Positions 12,842-43,072 of a stretch of DNA of 64,000 nt are shown here, piece by piece. The position numbers and the translations under genes were made by a program. The DNA is from Trichormus sp. M33_DOE_039 (GTDB taxonomy: Bacteria > Cyanobacteriota > Cyanobacteriia > Cyanobacteriales > Nostocaceae), in the NCBI GenBank assembly GCA_015296085.1, contig DVDT01000060.1, forward strand, positions 1 through 64,000, given 5' to 3'. Every line of letters begins with the position of its first letter. Positions within the stretch are counted from its first letter, which is position 1. The notes beneath the pieces are model-generated. The model had not been told where the DNA came from. It saw only the letters and a list, made by a program, of their open reading frames with translations, and did not search any database.

Positions 12842-13350
12842 CTATAACTGAGAATTGATAATCAAAGTTAGCTTACGTGCATCAAGAACCGTGATCATAC
12901 CATCGCCATCTAAATCGCGAGGATCTTTTTGAGTACCTAACAGTGTTGCTATACCCAGGTTATCGTCTAGCAGTGCGTCTGTAATATTACTGATGTAAAG
13001 GAAGAAATTCTTGTTTGTGGGTTGAGGTTTAGTAGCTGGCTTATTACGTGCTGCTAGGAGCAAATTCATATCAGTTTGGTTGACTAAACCATCACCATTG
13101 ATATCTCCTTCTTTTGGTTTAATCAGCATGACTTTAAGAGTCTGGATAGTTTGTCCTGCCTCAAAGGTGAGATTACCAGAGGTAGAAGCATAATCAACAC
13201 CCGCTTTCGCAGTATTATCGCCAGTATTAAAGTTAAATGTGACGGGTTGAGTACTAGGAGTAGATAATCTCACTGTAAACAAGGCAAAAGTATTGTTTTG
13301 GTCATCTGTGTTGATAGTGACATCATCGACTGTGAGTTTGGGAAGTTGAC
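12842..13350 (-). other. C-terminal Calx-beta domain and dockerin-like module of the giant protein
   Basis: The last 170 or so residues contain a Calx-beta unit (AGVDYASTSGNLTFEAGQT) followed by two calcium-loop repeats: GDINGDGLVNQTDMNLLL and, after an insert of about 45 residues, DLDGDGMITVLDARKLTLII at the extreme C-terminus. Paired DxNxDGxxxxxD loops each followed by a helix are the dockerin signature. Dockerins bind cohesins. The insert between the two repeats is longer than in cellulosomal dockerins. Confidence 0.75.
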
Positions 13351-16300
13351 TATTCACAATTACCTGTAAAGTATCTTGGGTTCTGCCACCATCTTGATCG
13401 GTGACGGTCAGTGTTACTGTATAGATGCCATCATTAATGTAGTTATGAGTAGGGGTGAGTGTAGCGATCGCTGTATTACCATCCCCAAAGTCCCATTCAA
13501 TTGTATGGGTATCGAGAATACCAGGGTCAGTGAATTGACTGGCAAAATTGACTAATGAACCTTGAACAACTGTTTGATCTACTCCTGCGTTAACAAGAGG
13601 TGCAACATTGGCAACGTTGACCCCTAAGGTTTGAGTAGTTACCCCACCATAAGAGTCAGTTACAGTCAGAGTAACCGTGTACTCACCATTATCTGCAAAG
13701 GTGTGTTGTACATTTTCACCTGTAATCGTGTCGCTACCATCGCCAAAGTTCCAGGTGTAAGTAAGGGTGTCATTACCAGGTTCAGTAGCTGTGGCGGTAA
13801 AGGTGGCTGTTTCCCCTTCATTTAGCTGGCTTTTACCGGAGAGGTTAGTAATTGAGGGTAGTAGATTATTAACGGTAATAGTGACGGTGGCTAAGTTTGA
13901 GGTTAAACCTTGGCTGTCTTGGATGGTGTAGGTAAAGCTTTCTGTCCCTGCAAAGGTGGGGTAGGGGGTGAAAGTGATTGTACCATCTGGGTTGATTGTG
14001 ATTGTACCGTTGGTTGGTTGAGTGGCGATCGCTAGTGTATTTTGGTTGAGGGTAGTGTTAGTGCGATCGTTGGCCAGGACATTGATAGTAACGGGTTGAC
14101 CTTGGTTAGTAGTTGCAGTGTCATTATTTGCAGTTGGAGGATTACCGACTTCCGTAATCAAAATAACATCATCTAAAATCACGCTACTGTCTACTTGACC
14201 AAAACCGAGTAAATCAAAGTAGAGAGTGGCGAAAGTTCCAGCTTGGAGACTGCTGATATCAATGTTGACCGTTAAAGGCGAACCCACACTACCAAAAATC
14301 TTCACTTGCGGTGCTGTGAAAATTTCCCCATCATTTTGAATATTCAGCAGTGCATCGGTTTGGGTGAGTCCGGTAACAGTTCCTAACAGGGGTTGCATGG
14401 TTTGAGTGTTGAGTAAAGCCACCTCAAACGCATCGGGAGGATTGAGTAAAGTGCTACCTAAATTAGTACTGAGAATCTTAAACTGGAGAGTTTTTGCATC
14501 TTGAGGAATGACGAAGCTTTGGGATAAACCACTGTTGAGATAGTCGCCTTCATTAATTTGGACAGCTTCATTGACAATAGAAGCATTACCACGCAAATTC
14601 CATCCAAATTGAGAATTACTGGGGTTATTAATGTTGAAGCTACCGTTAACAATACCTGCAGTGAAGTTAGTTAACTGAGTCGAACTAGATGCCAAACTTA
14701 GAGATAAAGATGGAGATAGTAAAGTCTCAGATGTGGTGAAGTTAGAAATATGCGATCGCGGATGACGGCGTACTCCTGCTGGTAGTGTCGCACTCATTAA
14801 GCGGTACGGTTGAATGCTAGCATCAATATCTGCTAAACCTAGAACGTGACCGAGTTCGTGAGTAATTACTGTTAATAAATCGACCTTACCAAAGGCGGGA
14901 CTATTTTCTTGAGCCTGAAATTCTGCTTCCGAAACTGCTGTCTGAAATTCACTACTGTTTGCCGGAGAATCATCGATAAACCATCCATAACCAGCTGCAT
15001 CCCGGTCAATCTTAATTGTCATTCCTTCAGTGAGAGCCAGAGTTGCACCTGTCAAATCAGTAACTTGGAATTGTACATTTTGCAGTTGGTTTAATTTATC
15101 TAACCCTACATTTGTTTGTTGCCAATCTGAGATGGCTTGATTTTTTAAGCTACTCAATACATTTGTGGTGAATAATTCTCCTGAAGGATTAAGTGTATTT
15201 GTTGATAAGGTTTCAGCCAGTAAATTTTGACTAAGAGAATTATTAATAGTGATAGTTCTACTTTGGGTAGAAGTTCCGCCATCATTATCTTCCAAGAGAA
15301 TAGATACTGTATAGGTTGTAGTGGGTTCATTTCTCTTGGCATAAATATGGCTGTATTCAGGTATGCTAAATACTTCATCTTCAGGACGGTCTTCTGGAGT
15401 AAAACTGCGTCCACTTACTCCACCATCACCCCAATCAATAAACATGGTGACAGTATCTTTTGTGCCAACGTCAATAAATGTGCCATTAATCAACGTGACT
15501 TTTGCCCCATTTTCAATCGGACTTTGTTGGAAATCAAAAGCTAGTAATTGTGGTACACGATTCTGCACAATTTGATTGAGTGTGACAGCAGAAGCAGCAG
15601 AATTACCCAGTTGGACTTGAATATTATAAGTATCTTGTGATGTGCCGTTGGGGTCATCATCTAGATAGCGGTGTTCTAGATAAATGGGAATAAAATTATT
15701 GTTGGGATTGGGATTTGTAAATGTATATCTTTGTTGTGGTGTACCATCACCCCAACTAACTAAAATCTCTGTAGCGAAACAGCCACCACCAGCAGTCACA
15801 ACACCTGTGATTTTTGACAGTCCATTTTCATCAATTACTGGTGAACTGAGTACCACATTTTGGAGAGTTTGCAGCCCAGGATCACAATTATCAATCAGGG
15901 TAATATTATCAATTGCTATACCCCCATTAAATCCATCAGCCATCACATCATTGCGGCGAATAATTAATTCTGCAATTTGACCTAATGCTTCTGTGGGTAA
16001 AGCAAAATTTCTTGACAAGAAAGTCGTAGAAAATCCTAGAGGATCGTTGCCGACTGGGTCTTGACCTACTTGAATATTCCCGACGGGGACAATGCGACCG
16101 TCAGCTAATCTTAATTCAATCACCACCTCATCATCGGTAACGGGGATAATGGGTAGATCTAGAGGTTCAGGGAAAATGTTTAAAGGTTTGAGTAGATGAG
16201 CTGTAGAAATCTGTAAAAACTGTTGACCATTGGGGGGAATGTAAAACCTGTTGTGAACAATCTTCGGAATTGATTCATCTAGTTCAAAAGCGAAATCAAT

Positions 16301-19300
16301 GAAATTTTCTTGAGATTGTTGAACTAATTTTTGTCCGATATCAGATAGTACTTCGATACCAGAACCTTTTAACAGAGCCAGGCCAAATTCTCTGTCTCCT
16401 TTCCCAATACCATCGATAATTGCATCAACCAGAATTTCCATGACATCTATGATATCGCTACTGGTTAACTTATCTTTGCCATAAGCTTCAATGGCATTAA
16501 TAATATCCTGTGGAACCGCTATTTGTTTGATTGTTTCTAATAACTTATCCCATTGCATATACCATTGCAGATTCCAGCCTTGATTAAATTGACCTGAACC
16601 TCCATGAAAAGACCAACCAGGGATTTCCCAACCGAGGGGGAATCTACCAAAAATTGGGCGGAAACTCGACTGAAAATCTCCATTAAATATCGGTGCAACA
16701 AATCCTTGATTTCCTCCCTGTTCGGTATTATTTGTGGTGATGGGAACAGATTGAGAACTTTGAGGACGTAAATTAGCACCACCACCTAGCGCAGAATAAA
16801 ACCAACCTGCACCGATTCCTTCCCAGGGTGCTGTATCTTCGGCAGAATTAAAATCGGAAGTCAGAGTAATTTGAGTATCCCAAGGTAAGTAAAATTCGGT
16901 TTCTCGCGCCCGATACCAAGGATTGGAAACTTGATCATATAAATTCAGATCGCCATACTTGCGCCAAATTGGTTCGGCATCAAATTCTGATAAGCTTAAA
17001 TCGGCTGTTCCTGCATACCAAGATTTCACTCGGCTATGAGTTTTTGCACCTATTTGAGCTTGTGTAAATCCGGCTCGGTTATCCAGCCAAAGATTAATAT
17101 CAGCCTTCTCAATTAATCGACCATTAGGAGTAATAGATAAAACATCAGTATTAAAAATCCCTAATGCTGCTTCTTTGCCTAATTTTTGATAGTAATTATC
17201 ATGAAAAGCAACATTTGACCATCTTTGCACATCAGGATCTTTCAATTCCGCATACAACAATTTATCATAATTAGCGACTTTCAAAACTTTTTCAAATATG
17301 GCATCAACGATTAAAGCCGGAATGTTTAACTTTCTCGCTTTGAGAATCCAAATGGGTAATTTAGCCACCACTGACCAAGGCAGATCTAAAGAGTCTTGTT
17401 TAAAATCATGGGGGTCGAGAGTTGTCATGTGAATATCATCAATGGCGGGGAAATACATCCCTAGACGCTGAATAATTTCACTATTAACAACTGCGCCGCG
17501 ACTATGACCAATAAAGTGTAGGGGTGAGGCGAAAACTTTGCCATCTAATTCTTTATTTAAATTGACTAAAGCGGCAAAAAAGGCATCGGCGGCGGCTTCA
17601 GAAAAACCAGAATCAGAAATGTCAGATTCTTCATTCCAATCGGGAATCAGAACTAAGGGTTTGCCTTCGGTAGCCCATCTGGCATCTAAACCAGATTGAG
17701 GAGAAAACCAACGTCCGTTGTAGCGATCATACATAAAGACTTCACTGCCGTCACCGCCACTGACTTGGGAAATGTAGCTACCCATGTCAACAAATGCTGA
17801 GGGAGCTTGAAATGGCAGATCGGCAAAACTCAAGGAAGGCTGAAAACCATGCGTGATAATTGTCACGCCATTAAAGGGTGTATTTAATTTAATTGGTGCA
17901 GTTGCAAATTCTCCTTTTCTAATTGTTTTCTGTCCAGTTTTTCTAGTGGCTTCTACTGCCCAATAATACTTCTGTCCGGCGGTTAATGTGCGGTTATCAG
18001 GCAGAATGAAACTGTCATTATCATTGGTGTTGAAAGACTCATTACCCCACACCCACTGGTTAGCTTGTTGATCCCAAGTGGCAGTCAGAATGCGATTGGG
18101 GTTGATATCCACAGGTTGATTGATGCGGGAGGGAACAGTACCCGGTAAATCGCTGGGTAATAAGCCTTCGCCTGGGGCAAAAACACTGACATATAATTTC
18201 ACTTCTCGAATATCTTCAGCTGTTACGCCATTGGTATATTCCCAGGTAAATTCCGGGGTTAAGTCCTCCAATCGATTGGCGTTGGTGCTAACTGTGGGTG
18301 CGGTCAATTTCAGCCATTCATTTTGCTGCATAGCAATACCGAAAGCATAACCGCCGATAGGAGCTTGGGTACTGCCATTAGGTACACCGACGCTGGGGGC
18401 GACTCTGGAGGTAAAGCGGTAGACGTTGTTATTATCTCTGGGATTAATTAAGGTGTAGTCGGCTTTGAAATCGATGTTGAGATCATTTTCGCGATCGCTG
18501 GCTTTCCCCCCACCGGGACGGCCATAGCTGTAAAATCCGTCAATGGGAACTGATGTTAAATCATAATCTGATTGATTCAGAGTATTTAAGATTGCCCGGA
18601 CATCGTAAATATACGTACCTGCACCATCACCTTTAGCGGCAACAAACAAGCGTTCCCCATCTGGTGATAGAACTAGGTTTTCGGGGAAAGTCCAAGGAAT
18701 CGGGCGAGTAGCTGCTACTAGTTGCCGTTGTCCGGCTCTATTCAGGGGATCACGAATAATGCCGACATTGCCACCGGCTGGGCGGTAGTTAATGTGGGAT
18801 AGATAATTAAACCAATCTTCGGGAGAGTAGGGATTATAGTTCGGATCTTTGGATATGACTCCATGAAAATAAGTGTTATAGGCAGAAACAAAGGCATAAT
18901 CAACTGTTTGGGTTGCGCCTAATGTGCCGGCTGGTAATAAAGCAATTCCTGAGCCGTTATTTACGTCAAAATAATCGATCCTGCTGCCTAATGTTAAATC
19001 CAGACTATCGGCAAATGTATCATTTTGCAGGATACCGAAGCCGCGTAAATCTTCAGAGCGATTGGTAAACAGCATCACATCGGGATCGGCAGTAGGAACG
19101 ATCGCATAGGGTTCTCTACCAACCGGGATGACTTTAATTTGCTGCCAATAGGTCTCTGAATCTGGATTGACATCAATGACAATGACATTACCTGATTGAC
19201 TTTGTTGTCCATTCACCCAACCAAATCCCCTTTGTCCTGGGGCTGTAGCATAGAGTTTTGTGCCGTCGCTGTTGAAAGCTAGACGAGGAATACCATGAAT

Positions 19301-37300: not shown

Positions 37301-39826
37301 AATTGTAGTGTTAGGTATAGCGAAATTGCGTGTAATGGTATAGCTACTACCTGCGGCTAGTGGTGTTTGAGTGCTGATATATTCACCACCAATATAAGTG
37401 TCTGAGGCATCTAATGTAGCGTCACTGGAAATATAAACATAGTCATACCAATCAGTCGATGCAGCGGCAGTACCTTGATTAGTAACTGTCCAGGAAACTT
37501 CTACTCTCTCGCCCAAAATAGCGGTAGTCGGGGCTTTAGGCGCAGACAGCACTAAATCTGGTGCATTTATCTGAATTTCTACTACCTGGACATTATTATT
37601 TTCGTTGGTTTCACCTTGATAGTTATTACCATCGGTAACAAACAGCAAGTAACCGTTACCAATAGTGATATTAGGTATAGTGAAATTGCGTGTAATTGTG
37701 TAGCTACCACCTGCAGCTAGTGGTGTTTGAGTGCCGATATATTCACCACCAACATAAGTGTCGGAGTAATCAAATACTGTATCGCTGGAAATATAAACAT
37801 AGTCATACCAATAATCTACCAATGCAGAGACAGTACCCTGATTAGTGACAGTCCAAGATAGAGAAATTGTCTCACCCACATTAGCCGATTTTGGGTCTGT
37901 AGGCGCAGATATCACCAAATCAGGCGCATTCAAGGTGATAGCTTTCGCTAAAACATTGTTTTCTTCATTGCTTTCAGTTTGGGAATAGGAACTGTCAGCA
38001 ACAAATAGGAGATAGCGAGCGCCTGCAGTTATATAACTAGGCAAGAAAATACTCTCAGATAAAAAACGGGTAGCACCTGGTTCGAGAGGGCTTTCTTGGA
38101 AGAAGTTAGTGAGGTACGTATCACTATTATCTAAAAATTCATCATCGGAGATGTAAACTGCGTTATCCCAATAAGTCGCTGTGGCAACTGTACCTTGATT
38201 AGTAACGCTCCAAGATACGGAAATTGTCTCTCCTAAATTGGCTGATGTAGGGGGTGTGAAAACTGACACGACTAAATCTGGAGTAGATATAGTCAGTGCG
38301 ATCGCTTTGACATTATTTGTTTCATCTATTTCGCTCTGATCATTGCTTTCATCGGTGACAAATAGCAGGTAGTATGAGTCATCACTACTAAAATAGCCTC
38401 CACCTTCACCATTACCTCCACTCAAATTAGTAGGTATATAAATGTCAAAAACAGTATTGTAAGTATCTCCTGGTAGAAGTGGTGTTTGGGAACTGGTGTA
38501 TAAACTACTGCCAACAGCAATATCTGAATAGTCTAGTGTTTCGTCAGGAGAAATATAGACATAGTCATACCAATCAGCCGATGTCGCTACTGTACCTTGA
38601 TTTTTTACTGTCAAAGATACAGAAACCGTCTCACCCAAAACTGGAGTTGTTAACGGAGTAGCATCTAACACTATTAGATCGGGATTTTCCCTGCTGATCA
38701 GAGGAATGATGCGATCATTGTTACTATTATCTATCTCTGATTGTTGATTGAGGAAATCACTACGAAAGACGAGATAGTAATTTTGTAATGCTCCTAAGTC
38801 TGAAGGTAAATAGCTTGTGAGAGAAATTTTATAGTTTTGATTAGGTGCTAAAGGTGTTTGTTCACTAATAACAGTACCAGTTAGAAATTGATCGTTATCA
38901 TCAAAAACTGGGTCTGAAGATAAATATACCTGATCGTACCAATCTCCTATAGCTGTTTCTGTCCCTTGATTGGTAACAGTCCAAGAAACGTCAAAATATT
39001 CACCTGCAACGGGATTACCAGACACTGTTATATCGGAGATGACTAAGTCTGCATTACTGCGAGGACTTAAACTAATCGCAAATGGAGAACTGACATTATT
39101 GGTTTCGTCAGATTCGGCTTGTACATTACTATTAAAATTGGGAAAGTTGTCAGTAACTGCGAATAAATAGTAATCTCCAGAAGCTATATTTTCCAGCGGT
39201 AAGAAAACATTTAATGTTTCGCTAGTATTGGGTGCGAGGGTGCTTAAATGGTAACTCGTAATAATGAGTTGATCAGAGTCAGGATTAAAAGTTTGGTCTG
39301 TTGAGAGATAGAAAGAGTCATACCAATCATCATCGGTAGTCGTTCCTATCCCTTGATTTAAGACTGTCCACGAAATTAAGACATTAGCACCACTCTGTAC
39401 TATTTCTGGTATTTCTACGTTTGTGACCACTAAATCAGGTAAATCAACACTAGCTGTCAACGCAGCATTAAGGAAGCTAAAGCTAGTTGTTATGTCTTCC
39501 TCATTTGTGAAGTTTTCTACTTCACTTGTTTTCAAGGCTGACCCAGTAAAATCTTGACTGAGAACTCCTACTATTGGTACATCATTCTGAGTTATCAGGG
39601 GGTCTTGGTTAAATAAATTAGTCGATTTTAAACTAAATGTATTACTACTTAAGTTATCTAAGGAATTAATATTATTAAGAGAATATTCTAAAAATAGATC
39701 GGTGAATAAAGCATTTCCTGAATGCTGTATGGGTTTGATTAAAGCATTACCTTCATATGTACCAAAATCTGTAATTAACCCTAAAAGGTTGGAGTTTTCT
39801 GCTATAGGATTTTGATTAAATTCCAT
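12842..39826 (-). CDS. Giant multidomain surface/secreted protein (8,994 aa; CARDB array, Ig, propellers, peptidase, dockerin)
   Basis: One uninterrupted frame of 26,985 bp fills 42% of the window. From the N-terminus I see 24 CARDB units (about 130-3190), a TIG-like region (about 3290), a beta-propeller (about 4085-4330), an SbsA-type Ig (about 4340-4440), nine He_PIG-type Ig units (about 4558-5429), an Rhs/YD-like segment (about 5611-5863), dockerin-like EF loops (6010-6065), a Big_2 unit, a second TIG, a YVTN-type propeller (about 6698-7091), a GHSRG hydrolase-like segment (Ser7442), PKD-like units, a metzincin motif (H8323), a cadherin-like unit, two PKDs, Calx-beta and a terminal dockerin. 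No Sec signal peptide is visible, so type I or another export route is inferred. Upstream lie a terminator and a gene of unknown function. Adhesion or matrix assembly is the likely role. Confidence 0.9.
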   Translation of the reverse strand: MEFNQNPIAENSNLLGLITDFGTYEGNALIKPIQHSGNALFTDLFLEYSLNNINSLDNLSSNTFSLKSTNLFNQDPLITQNDVPIVGVLSQDFTGSALKTSEVENFTNEEDITTSFSFLNAALTASVDLPDLVVTNVEIPEIVQSGANVLISWTVLNQGIGTTTDDDWYDSFYLSTDQTFNPDSDQLIITSYHLSTLAPNTSETLNVFLPLENIASGDYYLFAVTDNFPNFNSNVQAESDETNNVSSPFAISLSPRSNADLVISDITVSGNPVAGEYFDVSWTVTNQGTETAIGDWYDQVYLSSDPVFDDNDQFLTGTVISEQTPLAPNQNYKISLTSYLPSDLGALQNYYLVFRSDFLNQQSEIDNSNNDRIIPLISRENPDLIVLDATPLTTPVLGETVSVSLTVKNQGTVATSADWYDYVYISPDETLDYSDIAVGSSLYTSSQTPLLPGDTYNTVFDIYIPTNLSGGNGEGGGYFSSDDSYYLLFVTDESNDQSEIDETNNVKAIALTISTPDLVVSVFTPPTSANLGETISVSWSVTNQGTVATATYWDNAVYISDDEFLDNSDTYLTNFFQESPLEPGATRFLSESIFLPSYITAGARYLLFVADSSYSQTESNEENNVLAKAITLNAPDLVISAPTDPKSANVGETISLSWTVTNQGTVSALVDYWYDYVYISSDTVFDYSDTYVGGEYIGTQTPLAAGGSYTITRNFTIPNITIGNGYLLFVTDGNNYQGETNENNNVQVVEIQINAPDLVLSAPKAPTTAILGERVEVSWTVTNQGTAAASTDWYDYVYISSDATLDASDTYIGGEYISTQTPLAAGSSYTITRNFAIPNTTIGSRYLLFATDRFNNQGETNETNNVQVVEIQINAPDLVLSAPKAPTTAILGESVEVSWTVTNQGTVTAPTDWYDYVYISSDTIFDYSDTYIGGEYISTQTPLAAGGSYTITRNFTIPNTTIGSRYLLFVTDDGNRQGETNETNNVQAVEIQLNAPDLVLSAPKAPTTAILGERVEVSWTVTNQGTVTAPTDWYDYVYISSDTIFDYSDTYVGGEYISTQTPLAAGGSYTITRNFTIPNTTIGNGYLLFVTDGNNYQGETNETNNVQAVEIQLNAPDLVLSAPKAPTTAILGESVEVSWTVTNQGTVAAPADWYDYVYISSDATLDGSDTYVAQEYISTQTPLAAGSSYTITRNINIPNTTSGRRYLLFATDRFNNQGETNETNNVQAVEIQLGTPDLVMSAPKAPTAAAVGETIEVSWTVTNQGNLAAPADWTDYVYISSDTILDGSDTFVASESIATQTPLAAGGNYTITRNITVPITSFGSRYLLFVADRNNNQGETNENNNLSAVSFNVQPPADLITTITNAPSSVTWGDTATITWKVTNQGGGRATADWVDYIYLSTDTTIDAQDRLLTSVSVADQTPLASGDTYTLSQTVTIPNITPGTYYFLVASDANQQQPETNETNNLATSLLQVTVPPHADLIVAEITTSGSYVSGEPVQINWKVRNQGVAITNVSSWSDRIVLSTDNQLDSNDLELTRVSHISSLGINADYTKSAQVTLPNGIEGNYYIFVITDINNQVFEYLYENNNVNSTAINISRKPDPDLQITAINNPATAQPGENTTFSWTVKNAGTAEAKNPWVDRIYLSTNGNLTNATLLASVTRNTPLAIGETYTATQSLTLPVLADGNYQIIVVTDSNNQIFEGLGDSNNQKIGENPIFIGHPDLVPTIINLPSNVISDGNILLEWNVKNQGSAITLKNWRDRVYLSSDNKFDNSDLLLGEWNATTALAPNASYPAQLDIRLPVDISGDRYILVVTDANNQIQENSDESNNLAAAPIKIELTPYADLVVTNVTAPPLTIGNPAEVTISWRVSNQGNGTGKIASWVDRIIASSDEIVGNNDDRILGEFTRNGLLNVGASYNRTETLLLPNNFQGRYRLFVRTDATNQIWENNQESNNSAAATNFFDVVTIPYADLVISAVSADATGSSGQTLGMSWTVLNQSVANQGNAIAVTNTSEWYDTVKLATDAAGNNVVVNLGQFNHTGALGLDQSYIRNVQASLPNGLTGTYYVVVETGGPFEFVYNNNNRRVSTTPVNITLTPPPDLTVSDIIAPPAIKSGEKIDVTWTVRNIGQGNAATAWVDRVFLQEAGKPNGQTIQLGSFTYGSGLEAGKFYTRAEQFTIPSTLQGLYQVVIQTNASNSLYEHGATNNNTTVDPDILQVTLAPRPDLQVKEINAPENISAGGTVSLDFVVINQGTVATNTPRWRDRVYLSLDSRISSDDIVLGTLDNGAALAPGESYRSRTQPYIVPKFFRGPAFLLVEADASTQVDEYPNDSNNVLAKQVNVIGLPPSDLVTSNVIAPDQAFDGATIEVRYKVTNLGVGETDRDSWTDTIWLTRDKNRPSPITRDNPPLPNDILLATVSHSGSLKVGAGYEKIVRVTLPGQLTGEWYITPWSDAYDVVLEDTRDININPDDPNELDNNNYKARPITILLTPPPDLVVTSVTPTTQAQGGQPFNVKWTVQNQATTETLTETWTDIVYLSDKPNLEDRNAKVWVLGKINRTGKLKANETYTIDQTFNLSPAASGQYVIVETNVKRDASLQSTWEGPYTNNNTRTEATNVTPIPADLVVTAINVPPESFSGEKARIQWTVTNQGGTVWDGTRYWVDDVYISSDPNLQNLAVFDRRNSDITNFDINSLTPTYLGSFAYSPTRPLTTGESYTQTQEVILPRGIGGKYYVYVITNADPAVQEGDSVQISGAENNLRNRERYQSRVFEPRNNNLSRTLTPVTYREADLQVTQILVPPSTPQSGDIIPVTWTVKNQGTRETRQNYWKDRVYLSLDPSLDKTDRLLGELDRFGKLDAGSSYQATINLDLPDGIAGNFYILVFSDSNIVPNPVDPFEYGIDRRLSRVGEYRDEGNNITSVPLPIQLAIPPDLQVTSLIAPERAITGQTFNLTYTVKNNSTGNTARKQPNWRDLIYLSRDQFLDLRSDRYLDYVDHTGGLAAGASYTINKTLRLPTDLTGPFYVFVITDPPQDSPIGRVFEGGNEGNNATPSLQPLIIELPPPSDLQVETITVPGSVKTGDNIQLEWTVFNQGNYKANGEWTDAVYLSTDNIWDINDVVIGRVGFKGTLQTGESYTSKLTAALPPAIPGQYRIIIRPDIFNQVYEGSNEANNRTASADPLNVTVEELQLGVPLTTNLTTGKEKLFQVKVQQNQTLRVRVTGTDSESANELFLRFGNVPTDIVYDAAYEGQLSPNQTAIIPTTKPGVYYILVRDSGKATTVNLLADVLPFGITDVTTDRGGDSRYVTTTIRGAQFQKGAVVKLVRPGFAEYQPVRYEVIDSTKIIAIFDLREAVHGLYDVKVINPDGQTAIVPYRYLVERALEPDVDIALGGPRVLGVGGAGIYGVSVQNLSNIDTPYVQFQFGVPELGKNGVVYGFPYLKFSSNLGGQPESAALKDVPWASLISDVNTTGVNLAPGYIFDLPTGGYVGRTFTAQTYPGVKAITDRDFIALRLAIYEAYPELKGKINTPADLQQFYPAVLPDFNTGKLDTLAEADPFDVAFQFPIIAAATALTRQEFIDQQTKEALKLRNAILNDATASQGLIVLAADEQAWVQSYLAALEIAGLLRPEDQAPPVRQNPLVVSLMATLATGILAGPSGNQIITDGNLVSFFDKVRQWYGNDSTKIGTQNLPNFQDYDLGLSQRTHFEAFNIYVPFSNKNGSANLDLPSSVTVPTPSFARFFNAAGSVGEQASLTGPLGFGNQGFLPLGEALPYTISFENAATASSKVGEVRIVTQLDADLDPRTFELGDMQLGDIQVNLPTGRGSFEGTFDFVRSKGFLLRISAGLDPLSKTATWLLQAINPDTGEVIQDPNIGLLPANDANGAGRGFVTYTVKPKSDITTGSAIASQARVIFNTAAPLDTTALSNVVDAQAPTTQLTAKPLSSSSSDYLVQWQATDDSAGSGVKHVTVYVAKDGGNFEIWQRQTTATSAIFQGEAGHTYEFIALATDNAGNREQPRLGITPPDDGSGVNLGSLPTVNQTTQDLGTPPQPSTQPSTNPLFTEAEKLIPAPGTLTQPSEFTQTLRPFTVQAFATGISQSHGNIGPMAIATRADGTVIASGGLGRNQLYTIPKTGGAAGNPFATLPHPIFDLAFDRNGNLWATTGGGPLLQLNPNTGAILNQYGNGITQTLAIHPETGLIYLSSGNGVEIFDPSTATFTAFSNIRVGNMAFSPNGQLWAATWPQRGDIIRFDNTGKAQRVLSFDTAIDSLTFGVNGTQLAGLLFISSNQGEMTMVDVTTLRTVKVTQGGSRGDMIKATADGRVLISQSRQIDVLSPVVAPKVIATNPAPDANITLPYNTVSISFDQDMYVGNAGESSSVLNLNNFKLQGNSLGFLTPQTINYDAATRTVQLTFDALIPDRYELRVENTVKSLAGLEMQADYVDDFTAISDFLPYVDFKFDNPRSDRQTQTISYDVIITSKTDYDLLIPLVLLLEPQNNFTGIPLGNSGTTNQGAYLIDLSDSLTNGRLSPGQSIRGKVITVQNPEQLRVSLAPGIYALPTSNKAPNFTSAPVLTAKAGETYTYQATASDPDGVALAYLLYEGPAGMTVDTATGLVTWTPTSSSNAETSVKLRVYDSRGGYGIQNFTIQVNGGNHQPVLSPLPTQILGTEGELLEIPVSAIDADNNILSFFAENLPGGAVFDPLTQKLSWIPAFNAAGTYENVKFIVSDGLLQTSQTTTILIAPKNQAPTLTRPQERTLRQGEKLRLQLLATDPEGQKITYFSNILPGGAKLDPNTGIFEWTPTFFQAGEFEITFSAGDGESVTSQTAKITVLNANAAPIFDDLAAWQVQEGQQIRFRAFAFDPDNPAYVPPERLPDGTLTPLEGSEATVTYTVTNLPTGATFDSETGYFIWTPEYTSAGNYTPTFIATDNGDGTGNNLSTVVNVPIKVLNTNRIPAITPITNQTINRGEILELPVEFIDPDGNPLTITAQGLPGFGIPRFATFTDQGNGKGVLRLAPSFNDSGNYTITLKATDDGDGGGASAVQSQEYSFVVTVNAPNEPPQLSFVSDKVAVVGEQLQFEVLVNDKDQDNLTFSAVGLPNGATFVPTSVYGKAIFTWTPTAADVGNYDITLKVTDSGSGDISEVLSDQKLFKLKVRNANQAPVLSPITNQTLAEGQTLSLNLNATDADGDVLTYSAINLPVNAILNPVTGALTWQTTLNDTGSYNNIQLIASDGNKSSAQTITIKVNNTNQAPVLIPLPSQSGRENTLLQFTLAANDLDGDSLSISPISQLPIGASFNPETKQFTWTPNYEQAGNYTLKFAAFDPQGATSTVDVAIQIDNVNRAPSLQVSSHTAVLGQALKFTLIGTDPDSNTQLTYSANQLPEGATINSQTGEFTWIPSPGQMGEYPITFIVSDGETTSSETVLIKATLTPEPIPVTIELTPSFPAIPGQKILINALASSLGDIANITIKVNGQLVSKDAQGRGEFTATAPGKYIVEATAKDVDGLEGTISSVIKVRDPQDNLAPAVNFGTGFNGRKLTDITNILGNVIDSNLDDWILEISPFNSNHWQKLASGQTPVNNSALSQIDPQLLSNGFYQLRLQATDISGRSTTTEAFIEINSPQKPTQYQRRETDLTVDFAGTTLNLVRAYDSLNNQQSGTFGYGWRLANTDTNIQTNVPATGRETLGAYNPFRVGTRLYLSLPDGQRVGFTFQPEKREIPGLIYYTPAWVADPGVNYSLQSVDALLTLAGNKLYELKTAQPYNPASSTFNGNKYTLTAPDGTIYHLDAAGKVKEQITPNNVKFIYTDSGITSSTGEVVSFVHDAQGRLSKITAPDGRVVAYTYDDNGNLLAARQLFTGESQRYAYSQDNQHLLTLTAPSPGQVGAAILYNQQQPQVLPVLADLGSANKFIPTTTTGNLTAGETQRYTFSVRGSELRATETNVILLGVKLQANTGSLLQPQLPVINGLTPLATQITANSAFALYALNREGLHLLEINAKNNTAGGYSLQLFVAGDVNADGRVDGLDSQQLISALGSQQGDTKYNVNLDVNRDGSINATDVQILGSNYGFVANQAPVVQTTSILTHEDLAVTVPLTNLATDPDGDAVYYRVLNPVNGTVQMSADGVGAIFTPTADYIGNASFELLADDGFGAAIPVKVTVKVSDAPLLNIDIQNRNPLLQTGDRTQLIFLGDFADQQDVILTGNYLTISSSNPTAATINSRGQVLALADGTGLISASRNGIQAVTAFNVGIPAESLDQVIVIAGLETYPQTLSLPAQIGTRQLKIDVLDQIDLTQAEKGTRYFVGNPDVAVVSSDGLVTAKNPGVTTITVINGGSEVLIPVQITNPIVGPVTIGKEGGIVQGADGSLISIGPGTISEVTTVSINDVAVDSLPYLIPQPFQVLKAFELNLGDRNLNQPIQLTLPVDTSIAAGTEVYFFRASTVPDTTGGEQPVWLQLEKGVVGSDGYARTTSPPFTGIWGSGTYFMGTASADALGTINLEFAGNSSNAIAIINDSPSVADRTFAAPEEFGIQSLSLGGVSAAIAVIGITATLATVVPTGYKLIDVLSIPQVGLPSRNSYGLEVRPGVNTLQIPPLPIPPSQDLYLDPLILFANLELTDSGTLVTLSGNRFRGDDYTPNKTATPQVYFHNPDGTQVEGTIQSVTNTEIKVIVPQSVLIGLADVSVVRPGVQRIATPLIEEIPTEFFSNRISFGDYIDGKYAISALGGGRLGFIDQETGDLVARLTLQDGFVAAQSVAPTPDLTRVYAARGNGDVSVIDMQALRQLDVDASTQTVDSIRLWGATPYWAITDNEGDYLYVSDRFLPQIYVIDIQPESKTYHQLVETIPVGSIHGIPRLAFNSDGTKLYATAPGQRGFGWVNGQQSQSGNVIVIDVNPDSETYWQQIKVIPVGREPYAIVPTADPDVMLFTNRSEDLRGFGILQNDTFADSLDLTLGSRIDYFDVNNGSGIALLPAGTLGATQTVDYAFVSAYNTYFHGVISKDPNYNPYSPEDWFNYLSHINYRPAGGNVGIIRDPLNRAGQRQLVAATRPIPWTFPENLVLSPDGERLFVAAKGDGAGTYIYDVRAILNTLNQSDYDLTSVPIDGFYSYGRPGGGKASDRENDLNIDFKADYTLINPRDNNNVYRFTSRVAPSVGVPNGSTQAPIGGYAFGIAMQQNEWLKLTAPTVSTNANRLEDLTPEFTWEYTNGVTAEDIREVKLYVSVFAPGEGLLPSDLPGTVPSRINQPVDINPNRILTATWDQQANQWVWGNESFNTNDNDSFILPDNRTLTAGQKYYWAVEATRKTGQKTIRKGEFATAPIKLNTPFNGVTIITHGFQPSLSFADLPFQAPSAFVDMGSYISQVSGGDGSEVFMYDRYNGRWFSPQSGLDARWATEGKPLVLIPDWNEESDISDSGFSEAAADAFFAALVNLNKELDGKVFASPLHFIGHSRGAVVNSEIIQRLGMYFPAIDDIHMTTLDPHDFKQDSLDLPWSVVAKLPIWILKARKLNIPALIVDAIFEKVLKVANYDKLLYAELKDPDVQRWSNVAFHDNYYQKLGKEAALGIFNTDVLSITPNGRLIEKADINLWLDNRAGFTQAQIGAKTHSRVKSWYAGTADLSLSEFDAEPIWRKYGDLNLYDQVSNPWYRARETEFYLPWDTQITLTSDFNSAEDTAPWEGIGAGWFYSALGGGANLRPQSSQSVPITTNNTEQGGNQGFVAPIFNGDFQSSFRPIFGRFPLGWEIPGWSFHGGSGQFNQGWNLQWYMQWDKLLETIKQIAVPQDIINAIEAYGKDKLTSSDIIDVMEILVDAIIDGIGKGDREFGLALLKGSGIEVLSDIGQKLVQQSQENFIDFAFELDESIPKIVHNRFYIPPNGQQFLQISTAHLLKPLNIFPEPLDLPIIPVTDDEVVIELRLADGRIVPVGNIQVGQDPVGNDPLGFSTTFLSRNFALPTEALGQIAELIIRRNDVMADGFNGGIAIDNITLIDNCDPGLQTLQNVVLSSPVIDENGLSKITGVVTAGGGCFATEILVSWGDGTPQQRYTFTNPNPNNNFIPIYLEHRYLDDDPNGTSQDTYNIQVQLGNSAASAVTLNQIVQNRVPQLLAFDFQQSPIENGAKVTLINGTFIDVGTKDTVTMFIDWGDGGVSGRSFTPEDRPEDEVFSIPEYSHIYAKRNEPTTTYTVSILLEDNDGGTSTQSRTITINNSLSQNLLAETLSTNTLNPSGELFTTNVLSSLKNQAISDWQQTNVGLDKLNQLQNVQFQVTDLTGATLALTEGMTIKIDRDAAGYGWFIDDSPANSSEFQTAVSEAEFQAQENSPAFGKVDLLTVITHELGHVLGLADIDASIQPYRLMSATLPAGVRRHPRSHISNFTTSETLLSPSLSLSLASSSTQLTNFTAGIVNGSFNINNPSNSQFGWNLRGNASIVNEAVQINEGDYLNSGLSQSFVIPQDAKTLQFKILSTNLGSTLLNPPDAFEVALLNTQTMQPLLGTVTGLTQTDALLNIQNDGEIFTAPQVKIFGSVGSPLTVNIDISSLQAGTFATLYFDLLGFGQVDSSVILDDVILITEVGNPPTANNDTATTNQGQPVTINVLANDRTNTTLNQNTLAIATQPTNGTITINPDGTITFTPYPTFAGTESFTYTIQDSQGLTSNLATVTITVNNLLPSITNLSGKSQLNEGETATFTATATEPGNDTLTYTWNFGDGSDTITGENVQHTFADNGEYTVTLTVTDSYGGVTTQTLGVNVANVAPLVNAGVDQTVVQGSLVNFASQFTDPGILDTHTIEWDFGDGNTAIATLTPTHNYINDGIYTVTLTVTDQDGGRTQDTLQVIVNSQLPKLTVDDVTINTDDQNNTFALFTVRLSTPSTQPVTFNFNTGDNTAKAGVDYASTSGNLTFEAGQTIQTLKVMLIKPKEGDINGDGLVNQTDMNLLLAARNKPATKPQPTNKNFFLYISNITDALLDDNLGIATLLGTQKDPRDLDGDGMITVLDARKLTLIINSQL
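13340..14130 (-). other. Cadherin-like and two PKD domains of the giant protein
   Basis: The segment begins NDTATTNQGQPVTINVLAND, a cadherin-like/VCBS-type unit with TFTPYPTFAGTESFTYTI. Two PKD domains follow, with WNFGDGSDT and WDFGDGNTA and the closing YTVTLTVTD strand repeated in each. These are beta-sandwich spacers common in surface proteins. Confidence 0.75.
14755..15240 (-). other. Metzincin-like metallopeptidase segment of the giant protein
   Basis: The segment contains HELGHVLGLAD (residues 8323-8333), the HExxHxxGxxD zinc motif, followed at the expected distance by a Met-turn-like RLMSATL (Met8344). Upstream are strands typical of matrixin-like folds (FQVTDLTGATLALTEGMTIK and YGWFIDDSP). 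All catalytic positions are present, so it may be an active protease that acts on the giant itself or on surface proteins. Confidence 0.65.
17380..17875 (-). other. Alpha/beta-hydrolase-like segment of the giant protein
   Basis: The segment opens with the oxyanion-type strand VTIITHGFQPS and contains the nucleophile elbow FIGHSRGAVV (Ser7442), then TTLDPHDF, which could supply Asp and His. This resembles lipase-type alpha/beta hydrolases. The catalytic triad is inferred from motif order only. Confidence 0.55.
18555..19735 (-). other. YVTN-type beta-propeller of the giant protein
   Basis: Residues about 6698-7091 contain repeated blades such as YAARGNGDVSVIDMQAL, YLYVSDRFLPQIYVIDI and RLFVAAKGDGAGTYIYDV, spaced as in YVTN/WD-like surface propellers. 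A TIG/IPT-like domain (VTLSGNRFRGDDY) precedes it at about 19790-20000. Confidence 0.65.
21631..21799 (-). other. Internal dockerin-like module of the giant protein
   Basis: GDVNADGRVDGLDSQQLISA and LDVNRDGSINATDVQILGSN (residues 6010-6065) form a compact pair of calcium-binding loops each followed by a helix, closely matching a type I dockerin in spacing. It lies mid-chain, which is unusual. Confidence 0.7.
22240..22995 (-). other. Rhs/YD-like segment of the giant protein
   Basis: The segment begins RRETDLTVDFAGTTLNLVRA followed by YDSLNNQQSGTFGYGWRL, the entry motif of Rhs/wall-associated proteins. It ends with YD-type units (GRVVAYTYDDNGNLLAARQL). There is no PxxxxDPxGL cleavage motif and no toxin tip, so it is a structural fragment rather than a toxin shell. 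Confidence 0.6.
23540..26155 (-). other. Array of nine Ig-like (He_PIG-type) domains of the giant protein
   Basis: Residues about 4558-5429 contain nine units of about 90 residues. Each starts N(x)(A/P)P with a hydrophobic strand and carries the LPxGAxFxxxxxxxxWTP signature and a closing (F/I)xVxDG strand. This is the putative-Ig/cadherin-like fold found in bacterial adhesins. Confidence 0.75.
26495..27570 (-). other. Beta-propeller plus SbsA-type Ig domain of the giant protein
   Basis: Residues about 4085-4330 have NHL/SMP-30-like blades (FDLAFDRNGNLWATTGGG and GNMAFSPNGQLWAATWPQ). These are followed by an Ig-like domain beginning IATNPAPDANITLPYNTVSI with SFDQDM, typical of the SbsA/Big_5 family of surface proteins. 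Confidence 0.65.
30250..39440 (-). other. Array of 24 CARDB domains of the giant protein
   Basis: Residues about 130-3190 consist of about 24 units of 115-130 residues, each opening (P/A)DL and containing W(T/K)VxNQG, then DxVY(L/I)SxD, and ending ETNETNN-like. This is the CARDB (cell adhesion related domain in bacteria) pattern. The N-terminal third of the giant protein is entirely this stalk. Confidence 0.85.
36121..37920 (-). repeat. Five tandem 360-bp repeats within the CARDB array
   Basis: The DNA repeats with an exact 360-bp period: the segment ending ACTAAATCTG recurs at 36480, 36840, 37200 and 37560. The central copies differ by only scattered substitutions. The last unit (37561 onward) is six bases longer. 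Recent tandem duplication or gene conversion is the simplest explanation. Confidence 0.9.
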
Positions 39827-39986
39827 TTTTAAAAGAAAAATTATAAGGTATAAATAGTTTATTGATTATAATTTAATCACAATTTTCACTAGTTTAGTGT
39901 ATAGAATTTTATCTGCATTTTGGGTAAGGTTGAAGGCAGATAAATTATATTTGTTATGTTATGTGTTGAAAAAAAAGTAAGAGAGA

Positions 39987-40036
39987 TGAATAGTGGTGTA
40001 TATGCCATAATATGATTATCAATACACTACTATTCA
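39987..40036 (-). terminator. Terminator upstream of the giant gene
   Basis: A 15-bp inverted repeat with one mismatch (TGAATAGTGGTGTAT at 39987-40001, ATACACTACTATTCA at 40022-40036) is followed on the minus strand by a run of eight T residues a few bases beyond. It would end the transcript of the 245-aa gene, so the giant gene needs its own promoter in 39827-39965. Confidence 0.6.
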
Positions 40037-40047
40037 TTATTGATTAT

Positions 40048-40785
40048 TTAATTTGCTCCAATAACAACTTGCGGCGTTTCACTCTGTGGTACATCGATAA
40101 GATAGCTTTGATTATTTAAAAATTTGCTGTTGACAAGTTCTTTTAGTGTTTCTACGTCGTCTTGCCACTTGTCAATTACTACTCCTATAGCCGACAACCT
40201 TGCTGTTGGTTCATCTTGAGTAATAGCATGACTGAAGTTTGCAGAGAACAAAATGGCTGGCTTAGTTGTTTGATCGGGATACTGCAACTGAGCTTCATTG
40301 ATATCCAAATACAACTGTGTTTCGTCCAGTGTGTAAACCATTCTTACAGAAGCTTCCATCGGTGCAGAGCCAAAGTCTTGCCATGCTCCCGGTTGCAGTA
40401 GGTTGCTAAAAGTATAGTTGCGTGCGTTGAAATTTGTCTGTTCGTAAGGCGCGATTCCACGCACATTTATCCCCACACCTTGATAACTTACTTGTTTGAC
40501 TGTCTGGAGATATTTATGAGCTATGGCGGGGATTTCTACTTCACTGGCTTCTTTGGTGGCGATCGCTTCAGCAAAAATCACTCTATTAACTTCTGCAACT
40601 ATGCTCACACCATTTTTAAACACAACCTGAGCCGCAGTGTTAGTGATAACTGGTGGTCTAGCTAACTCCCACTCACTAGGAACAATCCCCGTGTACTTCA
40701 GGAAGTCTGTGGTCAAAATACTAGGGTTTTGCTGCCGAAGGGCGATCGCAATCAAAAGTTCTTGAACTTCAAAATTTTGGCTCAT
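40048..40785 (-). CDS. Conserved hypothetical protein, paralogue A
   Basis: The 245-residue protein begins MSQNFEVQELLIAIALRQQN and shares long identical stretches throughout with the divergent 246-residue protein at 41568-42308. Shared blocks include FAEAIA, LLQPGAWQDFGSAP, YTLDETQLYLDINEA and FSANFS; the two look roughly two-thirds identical by eye. There is no signal peptide or membrane segment, so it is probably cytoplasmic. I do not recognise the family. It is read toward the giant gene and separated from it by a terminator. Its position suggests a role in expressing or exporting the neighbouring surface protein, but that rests on context only. Confidence 0.7.
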   Translation of the reverse strand: MSQNFEVQELLIAIALRQQNPSILTTDFLKYTGIVPSEWELARPPVITNTAAQVVFKNGVSIVAEVNRVIFAEAIATKEASEVEIPAIAHKYLQTVKQVSYQGVGINVRGIAPYEQTNFNARNYTFSNLLQPGAWQDFGSAPMEASVRMVYTLDETQLYLDINEAQLQYPDQTTKPAILFSANFSHAITQDEPTARLSAIGVVIDKWQDDVETLKELVNSKFLNNQSYLIDVPQSETPQVVIGAN

Positions 40786-41567
40786 TTTTTAGTCGTAGAA
40801 ATAAAAATAAGTGCTATTTTATGCTTAGTTGACATAAGAATACACTTAATTCCCTAGAGATTAAAATAAATTTTTGATTAAGTTTCTGTAAAAAGCAGTG
40901 ATTATACTTGGTTTTTTTAAAGAAATGTTAAATAATACATAAGTTTAAAAAATATATTATCTCCTGATAACCTTCATAACGTGATTATCTTTGGTGGAGT
41001 ATAGCTCATCATATAGGTTTGTATTGAACTATAAAGGTGATACATCACTACAAGTTATAATTGGCTAAATTTATGTATTTATTTTATATATGAAAAAGTC
41101 GAAATAAATAGTTAAATTCGTATTTTAAAAAACAGTTTTATGATTAAAAATCATTTCAAGCAGGTCAATCCTCGGAAATAATTACATAAATCTTTTGAGT
41201 TAAAATTGTAAATTTATTATTAAACGACTTCAAAAATTTTTACCAATTCTGTATTATATATTTCAGAAAAAAGTAGAAATACATACTCATGTATTTTTAT
41301 TAATTGCTTAATTTCCTGTGTCATGGTAATCAACTAGCTTACTTATAGCGTATCAAGCTAATCTATAAGCACTGCTATGCAAGCTGAGTTAATTAACTTT
41401 GCCTCTGTAAAAATTAATTAGGAACATAAGCAGTAATATTAAGTTTTTTCAATACTTAATAAAAATACTAGTTTTATTGCCTATTCGCATAAGTTGCCTA
41501 ATTAATTTATTCAGAGAAATACACAAAATTTTTGTAAAAATTTTTAGATAAAGCAAAAGGAAAAATA
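40786..41567. other. AT-rich divergent intergenic region between the two paralogues
   Basis: This 782 bp stretch is very AT-rich, lies between divergent genes and has no credible ORF, RNA or repeat family that I can identify. It must contain both promoters. It is longer than most spacers in the window. Confidence 0.5.
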
Positions 41568-42308
41568 GTGAGCCAAAAATTTGAAGTTCAAGAACTGTTA
41601 ATAGCGATAGCAGTCAAACAGCAAAATCCCTCAATTTTGACTGCGGATTTTCTCAGATACACTGGAATCATCCCTAGTGATTGGGAATTAGCTAGACCAC
41701 CTGTTTTGACAAATACTGCGGCTCAAGTTGTTTTTCAGAACGGTGTAAGTCTAATTGCAGAGGTAAATAGAATTATCTTCGCTGAAGCTATTGCGAATAA
41801 AGAACCTAGCGAAGTACAAATCCCCGCCATAGCTCACAAATATATTGAGACAGTCAAGCAAGTGAACTATCAAGGAATTGGTATTAACTTAAGAGGTTTT
41901 GTCCTTGACGAAACAAAAAATCAAACTACACGCAATTACATTTTTAGCAAACTACTCCAACCAGGAGCATGGCAAGACTTTGGCTCTGCACCTGTACAAG
42001 CTTCTATGCGGTTTGTGTATACTCTGGACGACACACAGCTATATTTAGATGTGAATGAAGCCGAATTGCAATATCCAGACCAAACATCCAAGCCTGCTGT
42101 GCTATTCTCTGCTAATTTTAGCCGAGCGATCGCACAAGAAGAAGCAAAAGACCGTATAGCTACTATGGATATAGTAATTGACAAGTGGCAAACTGATTTA
42201 GCAACATTAAAAGCACTTGTTGATACCAAGTTTTTTAGTAACGATAGCTATCCCATAAATGCTGCATCAACTGAGACAATTAGGTTTCCAGCAATAGCAG
42301 CAAAGTAA
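41568..42308 (+). CDS. Conserved hypothetical protein, paralogue B
   Basis: The 246-residue protein starts at GTG 41568 after AAAAGGAAAAATA, a good ribosome-binding site, and its N-terminus (MSQKFEVQELLIAIA) aligns exactly with that of paralogue A. The two differ most in the middle (VLDETKNQTTRNY) and at the C-terminus. It has no signal peptide or transmembrane helix and no motif I can assign. A terminator follows at 42323, and then the cohesin-like surface protein gene. This mirrors the order in the opposite arm (paralogue A, terminator, giant gene). Confidence 0.7.
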   Translation: MSQKFEVQELLIAIAVKQQNPSILTADFLRYTGIIPSDWELARPPVLTNTAAQVVFQNGVSLIAEVNRIIFAEAIANKEPSEVQIPAIAHKYIETVKQVNYQGIGINLRGFVLDETKNQTTRNYIFSKLLQPGAWQDFGSAPVQASMRFVYTLDDTQLYLDVNEAELQYPDQTSKPAVLFSANFSRAIAQEEAKDRIATMDIVIDKWQTDLATLKALVDTKFFSNDSYPINAASTETIRFPAIAAK

Positions 42309-42322
42309 TTTAATGCTGGATG

Positions 42323-42361
42323 ATGCACAATTGCTAAATCAGATGTTCAGTAATTGTGCAT
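42323..42361 (+). terminator. Terminator after paralogue B
   Basis: A perfect 10-bp inverted repeat (ATGCACAATT at 42323-42332, AATTGTGCAT at 42352-42361) is followed by a T-rich stretch. Confidence 0.55.
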
Positions 42362-42430
42362 TATTTGGTTTATATTTTTAACTTAAATACTTCAATCGTT
42401 ACTATAGTCTTATTCACTTAATTACTGCTC

Positions 42431-43072
42431 ATGAAACCCAATTTAGGATTAGGGATAGGTATTGCATTAATATCATTTTTGAATGTAGGTTCAGTTCAAG
42501 CCATTACGCTATCTTTTGAACCAGAATATCAGGAAGTCTTACTTGGTAACACAGTGGATGTAGATATTAAAATTTCTGATTTGGGTGATGATGTACTGGG
42601 TAGTTATGACTTAACGGTTGAATTTGATGCCGATATTCTAGAATATCAGGATCATAGTTTTGGTACTCAACTTGGTTTCGGTGATCAAAATTTCCCATCT
42701 CTTGCATTTTTATTACCATCGCCAAATGAAAATAATCTAATATATAGGCTTAACCTTTATGAAATTTCTTCCTATGAGCCTGATTTTCTGAATGTTAATC
42801 AAGATAATGATTTTATTTTATTCACGTTAACTTTTAAGGCAATTCAATTAGGCATTAGTCCAGTAAAAATTGTGAATGAGCCACCAGATATTCCCTTCAT
42901 ATTAGGGGATGCTTATGTATCTAATTTACCAGTAAATATCCCTGCTGATGGAAGTGTAAAAGTTACTGAATCAACTCCCATTCCTGAAGCTTCTACTATA
43001 CCTATCCCCATAGTAGGTATAATTATGTGGTTTTTAATGAACAAATATAGAAAAAGCAAAAATATTGGTTGA
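42431..43072 (+). CDS. Cohesin-like surface protein with PEP-CTERM-type anchor
   Basis: The 213-residue protein has a signal peptide (cleavage likely after VQA, residue 24). Its 140-residue extracellular domain has cohesin-like features: an opening strand (YQEVLLGNTVDVDIKISDLG), the YDLTVEFDADILEY strand pair characteristic of cohesins, and the late strand FTLTFKAIQLGISPVKI. The C-terminus has a PEP-CTERM-type tripartite tail: PEAST (185-189), a hydrophobic helix (IPIPIVGIIMWFLM) and a basic end (NKYRKSK). Such tails are processed by exosortases, which anchor or release proteins at the surface. Cohesins bind dockerins, and the giant protein nearby ends in a dockerin-like module. The pairing is inferred. 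Confidence 0.72.
   Translation: MKPNLGLGIGIALISFLNVGSVQAITLSFEPEYQEVLLGNTVDVDIKISDLGDDVLGSYDLTVEFDADILEYQDHSFGTQLGFGDQNFPSLAFLLPSPNENNLIYRLNLYEISSYEPDFLNVNQDNDFILFTLTFKAIQLGISPVKIVNEPPDIPFILGDAYVSNLPVNIPADGSVKVTESTPIPEASTIPIPIVGIIMWFLMNKYRKSKNIG

Follow-up and report, generated by a model that had tools for sequence, protein, structure and literature searches.

We analysed a stretch of 64,000 nucleotides from the genome of the cyanobacterium Trichormus sp. M33_DOE_039 (contig DVDT01000060.1, positions 1 to 64,000; hereafter the window), which encodes an exported cohesin-type protein of 213 amino acids (aa), P0001, close to a giant protein of 8994 aa that ends in a dockerin-type module (Table 1). 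P0001 is probably a surface hook that binds the terminal dockerin of the giant and holds the giant at the surface, a reading that draws on the domain identities of the two proteins, the co-occurrence and proximity of their genes, and the presence of exosortase genes. Both open reading frames (ORFs) lie where the original prediction had placed them, and the P0001 gene begins 2605 bp past the start codon of the giant. In the mechanism that we propose, P0001 would leave the cytoplasm through Sec, be sorted by an exosortase via its C-terminal PEP-CTERM-like tail, and stay in the matrix or at the cell envelope. Through its cohesin face it would bind the terminal dockerin of the giant in calcium-loaded form, and this binding would keep the giant at the surface; the giant itself would probably leave through a type I system. 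The same type of hook may serve other dockerin-tailed cargo in other bacteria, perhaps with many such cargo proteins per genome.

P0001 matched the Pfam family Cohesin (PF00963) above its cut-off (26.8 bits against 24.1; E-value 6.7e-6; residues 39-104), and it was the sole PF00963 match listed for the window genome. Its structure was predicted with AlphaFold2 (AF2) from an alignment with two relatives, L051 and L053. The best of five models had a mean predicted local distance difference test score (pLDDT) of 62.4 and a predicted template modelling score (pTM) of 0.56, and we regard it as usable but not strong because the remaining four were worse (pLDDT 53.9, 42.7, 37.7, and 34.2). This model consists of a leading helix (residues 6-17, in the signal-peptide region and of low confidence), ten strands within residues 25-179, and a terminal helix (residues 192-211). 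When it was searched against the PDB with Foldseek, 78 matches were obtained at E ≤ 0.001, and the 50 of these 78 that were listed were cohesin-bearing entries, with a best E-value of 2.1e-9 and, among the 50 matches listed, a template modelling (TM) score on the target of up to 0.82 (1ohz); 3kcp is among these cohesin-bearing entries. The ten strands and the Foldseek cohesins, which come from the one good model of five, agree with the nine-stranded cohesin jelly-roll that had been predicted. A search of PDB sequences with P0001 alone gave no match, and a profile of six relatives (A4) retrieved cohesin-bearing chains (best 3l8q, E-value 2.1e-6). A cohesin fold for P0001 is supported at the level of this predicted model. 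Among the homologous hooks, that of L123 scored above the PF00963 cut-off (27.0 bits) and that of L053 at it (24.1 bits).

The last 100 aa of the giant matched Dockerin_1 (PF00404) with 29.4 bits (cut-off 22.9) in two separate stretches, and two F-hand loops of the form D-x-[ND]-x-D-G-x-[IV]-x-x-x-D (DINGDGLVNQTD and DLDGDGMITVLD) were present. Both halves of the predicted pair, the cohesin-like protein and the giant's dockerin-type end with its two calcium loops, therefore exceed their Pfam cut-offs. In the 18 paired modules, loop 1 kept its first Asp in 17/18 and its last in 18/18 cases, and loop 2 kept both in 18/18. A profile of nine modules retrieved three dockerin-bearing sequences from the PDB sequences (best E-value 4.1e-4). 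PF00404 scores of the other modules varied: that of L051 reached 37.5 bits, above the cut-off, those of G102 and G148 scored 13.3-16.1 bits, below it, and no match at E ≤ 0.1 was found in the module of L052 or the fragment of L053.

The two dockerin repeats are parted by approximately 31 residues in the window giant and in both giants of the related genome G139, whereas they lie close together in the other aligned modules. When repeat 1 was deleted from the query, the match to the preceding Calx-beta domain rose from 43.8 to 50.5 bits and its profile end moved from 83 to 98 (of 119); when the insert was deleted, the dockerin became one continuous PF00404 match (33.0 bits, profile 2-52). Most simply, repeat 1 would be placed inside the Calx-beta domain and repeat 2 would follow the domain. 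This splitting of the terminal dockerin had been missed by the original prediction, as had a stronger dockerin in the interior of the giant.

The two parts occur together. With single-sequence queries of 145 genomes of the family, P0001 was found in three and the C-terminal module in three, which were the identical three and all belonged to the genus of the window. With profiles, four of the 13 genomes of the genus (the window's included) had both parts, nine had neither, and none had a single part, so a consistent lack of one partner in relatives holding the other, which had been named beforehand as evidence against the pairing, was not seen. The profiles used (A2 and A3) were built from G000 (the window genome), G102, and G139, where matches are by construction; the fourth positive genome, G148, had no part in building them. 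A scan of 319 cyanobacterial genomes with the module gave only two positives, both of the window's genus. Dockerins and cohesins in general did not follow this pattern: among the 145 family genomes, PF00404 was present in 19 and PF00963 in 6, 13 of the 19 had neither a PF00963 nor a P0001 match, and one genome (G064) had PF00963 and lacked PF00404. These contrasting counts indicate that general dockerin-like domains are independent of this cohesin, whereas dockerins of the signature type (RN-P, DPRD, R) track the P0001-type cohesin.

In the four carrier genomes of the genus, the cohesin and module parts lie within approximately 2.6 kb of each other, in two arrangements. In G000 and G139, a giant with the module at its end lies approximately 2 to 2.6 kb from the cohesin gene; G139 repeats the window layout, with the giant followed by a P0003-like gene and the cohesin gene (L044, 17307-18101 and then 18215-18877), divergent from the giant, and carries a second module-ended giant elsewhere in its genome. 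In G102 and G148, the cohesin frame is 223 and 146 bp, respectively, from large proteins with the module at their beginning (two proteins in G102, one in G148), which follow the cohesin gene on the same strand. The plug therefore appears to have switched ends while staying near the cohesin.

The pairing recurs in distant bacteria. A scan of a contig collection with the module alone, which is no census and may miss records near the window genome, yielded at least four loci, including L051 (Gammaproteobacteria), where a cohesin-like protein is encoded 160 bp ahead of a subtilase with a C-terminal module, and L053 (Candidatus Competibacteraceae), where a cohesin protein with a VPEP tail lies just past a dockerin fragment; L053 and L054 contain dockerin pieces only. 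A plasmid collection gave no match to the L051 module. Twelve of 369 genomes of Gammaproteobacteria, the class of L051, were positive with the module profile, and in all 12 the cohesin profile found an ORF on the strand of the dockerin ORF and no more than 0.8 kb away from it (11 of the 12 lay outside the training of the cohesin profile; E-values 4.2e-31 to 7.2e-10). Matches are by construction in the sequences added to the profiles, namely G148, L051, and L053 for A4, and G148, L051, L052, and L053 for A5; a further cohesin-dockerin case, L127 (G441), is independent of A4. No cohesin match at E ≤ 1 was obtained in 20 control regions, 15 of which came from ten of the 12 gammaproteobacterial genomes and five from G102, G139, and G148. 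In the Gammaproteobacteria, the cohesin search covered module-positive genomes, in the surroundings of their modules and in the control regions. All 18 tabulated cohesin-dockerin ORF pairs are same-strand, with frame gaps of 3 to 778 bp in 17 and 5924 bp in one, the second client in G102; the module lies at the C-terminus in 11 of the pairs, at the N-terminus in six, and internally in one.

The partner proteins scanned were diverse, including two subtilases, a GDSL lipase, RHS/teneurin-like, PASTA/RHS, and IgGFc-binding-type proteins, as well as glucose/sorbosone dehydrogenase-type, NHL/SGL-type, and PKD/Ig proteins; those of L115 and L119 matched no Pfam family at E ≤ 0.001. Many clients outside the cyanobacteria have Sec-like N-termini as judged by eye, and none of the cyanobacterial clients does. 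The 8.9 Mb genome G442 (the record of L054) had 23 module matches in open frames that reach 4758 aa, and its one cohesin ORF found lies 100 bp past a frame of at least 3391 aa that ends in a dockerin; the one module protein scanned for domains contained 19 PKD stretches. The recurrence of the two-gene pairing in distant bacteria suggests a general way to hang large secreted proteins on the surface. Since proteases, a lipase, and RHS proteins are among the partners elsewhere, the role in general appears to be display at the surface and not just adhesion. The interpretation that had been proposed is supported, and the pairing more strongly than could be seen from the sequence alone. An adhesion or matrix-formation role for the window giant itself is plausible from its CARDB, PKD, cadherin-like, and Calx-beta repeats.

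The tail of P0001 resembles the PEP-CTERM type by eye, and the orthologs in the genus have IPEP (G139) or VPEP (G102 and G148) at the tail position. The Pfam PEP-CTERM model PF07589 (cut-off 20.7) was passed by the hooks of L172 (29.4 bits) and L115 (32.0 bits), and those of L053 (20.3), L116 (18.8), L051 (18.0), and L123 (16.4) fell short of it. Exosortase genes (PF09721) were found in 13/13 genomes of the genus, including two in the window genome (202.3 and 149.5 bits).

Several observations weigh against the proposed hook function. In the window, the genes for P0001 and the giant are divergent, and two ORFs, P0004 and P0003, lie between the start codon of the giant and the P0001 gene. PF00963 scores of other hooks were below the cut-off in G102 (22.4), G148 (21.5), L121 (20.9), L051 (18.3), G139 (16.8), and L115 (16.6), and the hooks of L116, L122, and L172 gave no PF00963 match at E ≤ 0.01, in a scan that omitted L113, L114, L117-L120, and L127. 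None of the PEP-CTERM models (Pfam PF07589; NCBIfam, including TIGR02595) recognises the tail of P0001, for which the predicted anchor is seen by eye and from the orthologs. The AF2 model of the dockerin was poor (mean pLDDT 56.1, pTM 0.25), and Foldseek returned no match for it at E ≤ 0.001. By eye, no Sec signal was seen at the N-terminus of the giant, and no ABC exporter gene was seen beside it, as judged from the window alone. Genome G440 showed no cohesin beside its three modules, all of which are near contig ends. In G442, only the one cohesin ORF was found in the 21 regions that hold 22 of its 23 modules; none was found in ten control regions or at the contig edge of L054, where the 23rd match lies, and the rest of the genome was not searched. 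A mirror-tree test of the 18 pairs gave a weak correlation (r 0.24, p 0.014), and the 14 non-cyanobacterial pairs gave none (r 0.02, p 0.44); in this test, co-evolution of cohesin and dockerin had no support beyond the clade split.

Among other explanations, the pair may bind without the cohesin being a cell anchor: cleaved by the exosortase, P0001 would be released to the sheath or exopolysaccharide and would cross-link the giant into the matrix. PEP-CTERM proteins are linked to exopolysaccharide, and this explanation would fit a P0001 tail that models do not recognise as well as the atypical tails of some hooks (L114, L119, and L122). The hook homologs that were read nevertheless keep, by eye, a hydrophobic tail followed by basic residues, and although nothing here discriminates between the two fates, we consider release unlikely. 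The terminal module could instead be a calcium-stabilised end cap or an export signal, with the neighbouring cohesin serving otherwise. Type I secretion signals lie at the very C-terminus, which is where the module of the giant is found, and dockerin-type domains without cohesins are common, as in the 13 of 19 family genomes mentioned above. However, the module is near the N-terminus or internal in three cyanobacterial proteins (two in G102, one in G148) and four gammaproteobacterial proteins, where a C-terminal export signal would not sit, and it accompanies the cohesin in 4/4 carrier genomes of the genus and 12/12 in the Gammaproteobacteria, with G440 as the exception; an end cap or export signal is accordingly quite improbable.

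The partner of the cohesin could also be the internal dockerin of the giant (residues 6009-6059), instead of or besides the C-terminal one. The internal domain has the higher Pfam score (48.7 against 29.4 bits) and was the sole PF00404 place listed for the window genome at E ≤ 0.001; a Pfam scan of the giant in 3000-aa pieces likewise reported this stretch. Similar internal domains, though, occur in giants of family genomes without a P0001 or module match, and they lack the RN-P, DPRD, R signature typical of cohesin-linked modules, which the cohesin-linked proteins of G102 and G148 bear; the internal dockerin was rejected as the main partner because similar domains occur in these giants, and any share for it in the binding is very doubtful. 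Finally, the two genes might be neighbours without partnership, brought together by chance in surface-protein islands. All cyanobacterial carriers were found in one genus, and the four cases are therefore not independent, but the pairing is repeated in 12/12 gammaproteobacterial genomes with varied cargo and in both gene orders and was matched in none of 30 control regions, which leaves chance neighbourhood scarcely credible. A chance pair of weak motifs was rejected because of the agreement of profiles, fold, and co-occurrence.

The hook reading may extend to a general hook-and-cargo display in Gram-negatives, an idea that we hold to be about evenly balanced. One exosortase-sorted, single-cohesin socket would be reusable for any secreted protein that bears a DPRD-type dockerin at its N- or C-terminus, and its clients would number from one in the window to perhaps more than 20 in G442. 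In the window's genus, the plug would be threaded through a Calx-beta domain, its split halves flanking the last strands, where they might form a calcium-locked clamp at the end of a fibre of nearly 1 MDa. If the hook reading is true, exosortase sorting and cohesin-dockerin docking, each known on its own, become linked, and this provides a route for holding large secreted proteins on cells, with no need for an anchor of their own in each. The pair is small and testable, with a 213-aa hook and one recognised client in the window genome, and most genomes of the genus lack both.

The pair shares its two folds, by profile and for the cohesin also by structure, with the type I cohesin-dockerin system of Clostridium thermocellum (PDB 1ohz) and its OlpA-type anchors. 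The likeness to OlpA-like single-cohesin proteins lies in a surface cohesin holding dockerin-bearing secreted proteins, as P0001 would do. OlpA is anchored by surface-layer homology (SLH) repeats, whereas the hook of the window has a PEP-CTERM-like tail, and in contrast to cellulosomal pairs, the partners are giants, proteases, RHS proteins, and others. Only one PF00963 and one PF00404 place were listed in the window genome, with no multi-cohesin scaffoldin, and the domain list of the giant contains no cellulase domain, so the arrangement is not a cellulosome. Cohesin and dockerin modules outside cellulosomes are described in all domains of life (PMC5244752, PMC6030884), and their function there is stated not to be known (PMC5244752). 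Compared with these known modules, the present case offers a defined pair whose proximity is conserved, with an anchor of exosortase type and a dockerin subfamily that can be recognised. PepA, a flocculation-associated PEP-CTERM protein (NF033554), shares the tail and the exosortases, but the body of the hook differs in being a cohesin, to which a second protein could attach; against NF033554, the C-terminal half of the L053 hook scored 36.9 bits, below the cut-off of 80. HesF of Anabaena sp. PCC 7120 is an exoprotein with a role in adhesion; it has no signal peptide, and its secretion requires HgdD (PMC4390845). It is a precedent for the export of such a protein, and it is not reported there as cohesin-held (PMC4390845). 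In an open-access library that lacks most subscription journals, no paper joined PEP-CTERM with cohesin or dockerin, and the sole match for exosortase with cohesin or dockerin concerns methanotrophic archaea.

Table 1. Positions of the hook, the giant, their parts, and the genes between them in the window
Feature	Position	Strand	Basis or content
Cohesin-type exported protein P0001, 213 aa, proposed hook	42431..43072	+	PF00963; AF2 and Foldseek; PDB profile search
Probable Sec signal peptide of P0001, residues 1-24	42431..42502	+	Translation by eye
Cohesin domain of P0001, residues ~25-180	42503..42970	+	AF2 strands 25-179; Pfam stretch 39-104
PEP-CTERM-like anchor of P0001, residues ~184-213 (PEA, hydrophobic helix, KYRKSK)	42980..43069	+	By eye; AF2 helix 192-211
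Giant protein, 8994 aa, proposed cargo	12842..39826	-	CARDB, He_PIG/Big_9/cadherin-like, RHS, PKD, Calx-beta domains
C-terminal dockerin repeat 1, residues 8907-8936, DINGDGLVNQTD loop and next helix	13019..13108	-	PF00404; alignments A3, A5
C-terminal dockerin repeat 2, residues 8968-8994, DPRDLDGDGMITVLDARKL	12845..12925	-	PF00404; alignments
Last Calx-beta domain, first part, residues 8831-8904 (profile 8-81 of 119)	13115..13336	-	Pfam
Insert between dockerin repeats, residues 8937-8967, Calx-beta-end-like	12926..13018	-	Local matches to repeats of giant homologs
Internal dockerin-type domain of giant, residues 6009-6059	21650..21802	-	PF00404, 48.7 bits, E 9e-13
P0004, 245 aa, directly upstream of giant	40048..40785	-	No family assigned
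P0003, 246 aa, P0004 paralog, 122 bp directly upstream of P0001 gene on the shared strand	41568..42308	+	ORF list

Homologous giants were found in nine other genomes without a P0001 or module match, together with another giant in G102; in these ten, much of the body is kept, the ends differ, and the terminal module is missing. Three of the ten (G070, G115, and G102) have, at most approximately 2.3 kb downstream, an ORF for an ABC exporter with a Peptidase_C39 domain, and ABC exporters are also annotated near giants in the plasmid records AP018293, which appears to be the same as G115, and AP018308. Type I export is the probable route for the giant.

The two ORFs between the giant and P0001 appear by eye to be close paralogs in inverted orientation, and neither matched Pfam or NCBIfam at E ≤ 0.01. 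Relatives of P0003 occur on 20 plasmid records. In four of the five that were read, the relative lies directly upstream of a very large coding sequence (CDS) on its own strand; in the fifth, AP018293, it is likewise upstream, with one gene between the two. On one of the records, L198 (NZ_CP091914.1, 21051-30689), a P0003 relative (74% identity) is followed by a large CDS annotated as a 'colicin E3/pyocin S6 family cytotoxin', and a gene for a PEP-CTERM protein comes shortly past it. Judging from L198, the C-termini of such giants may vary like those of polymorphic toxins.

Cohesin matches were also noted elsewhere in the family. One genome with an estimated contamination of 6% (G081, C1, 4241089-4254267) has seven PF00963 matches in approximately 13 kb. 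In another (G013, C1, approximately 3310784-3311467; L004, L031, and L068), a cohesin match of 45.8 bits lies in a stop-free frame reported as 36,883 aa, with a dockerin match near the cut-off beside it in the same frame; if real, this would be among the largest bacterial proteins.

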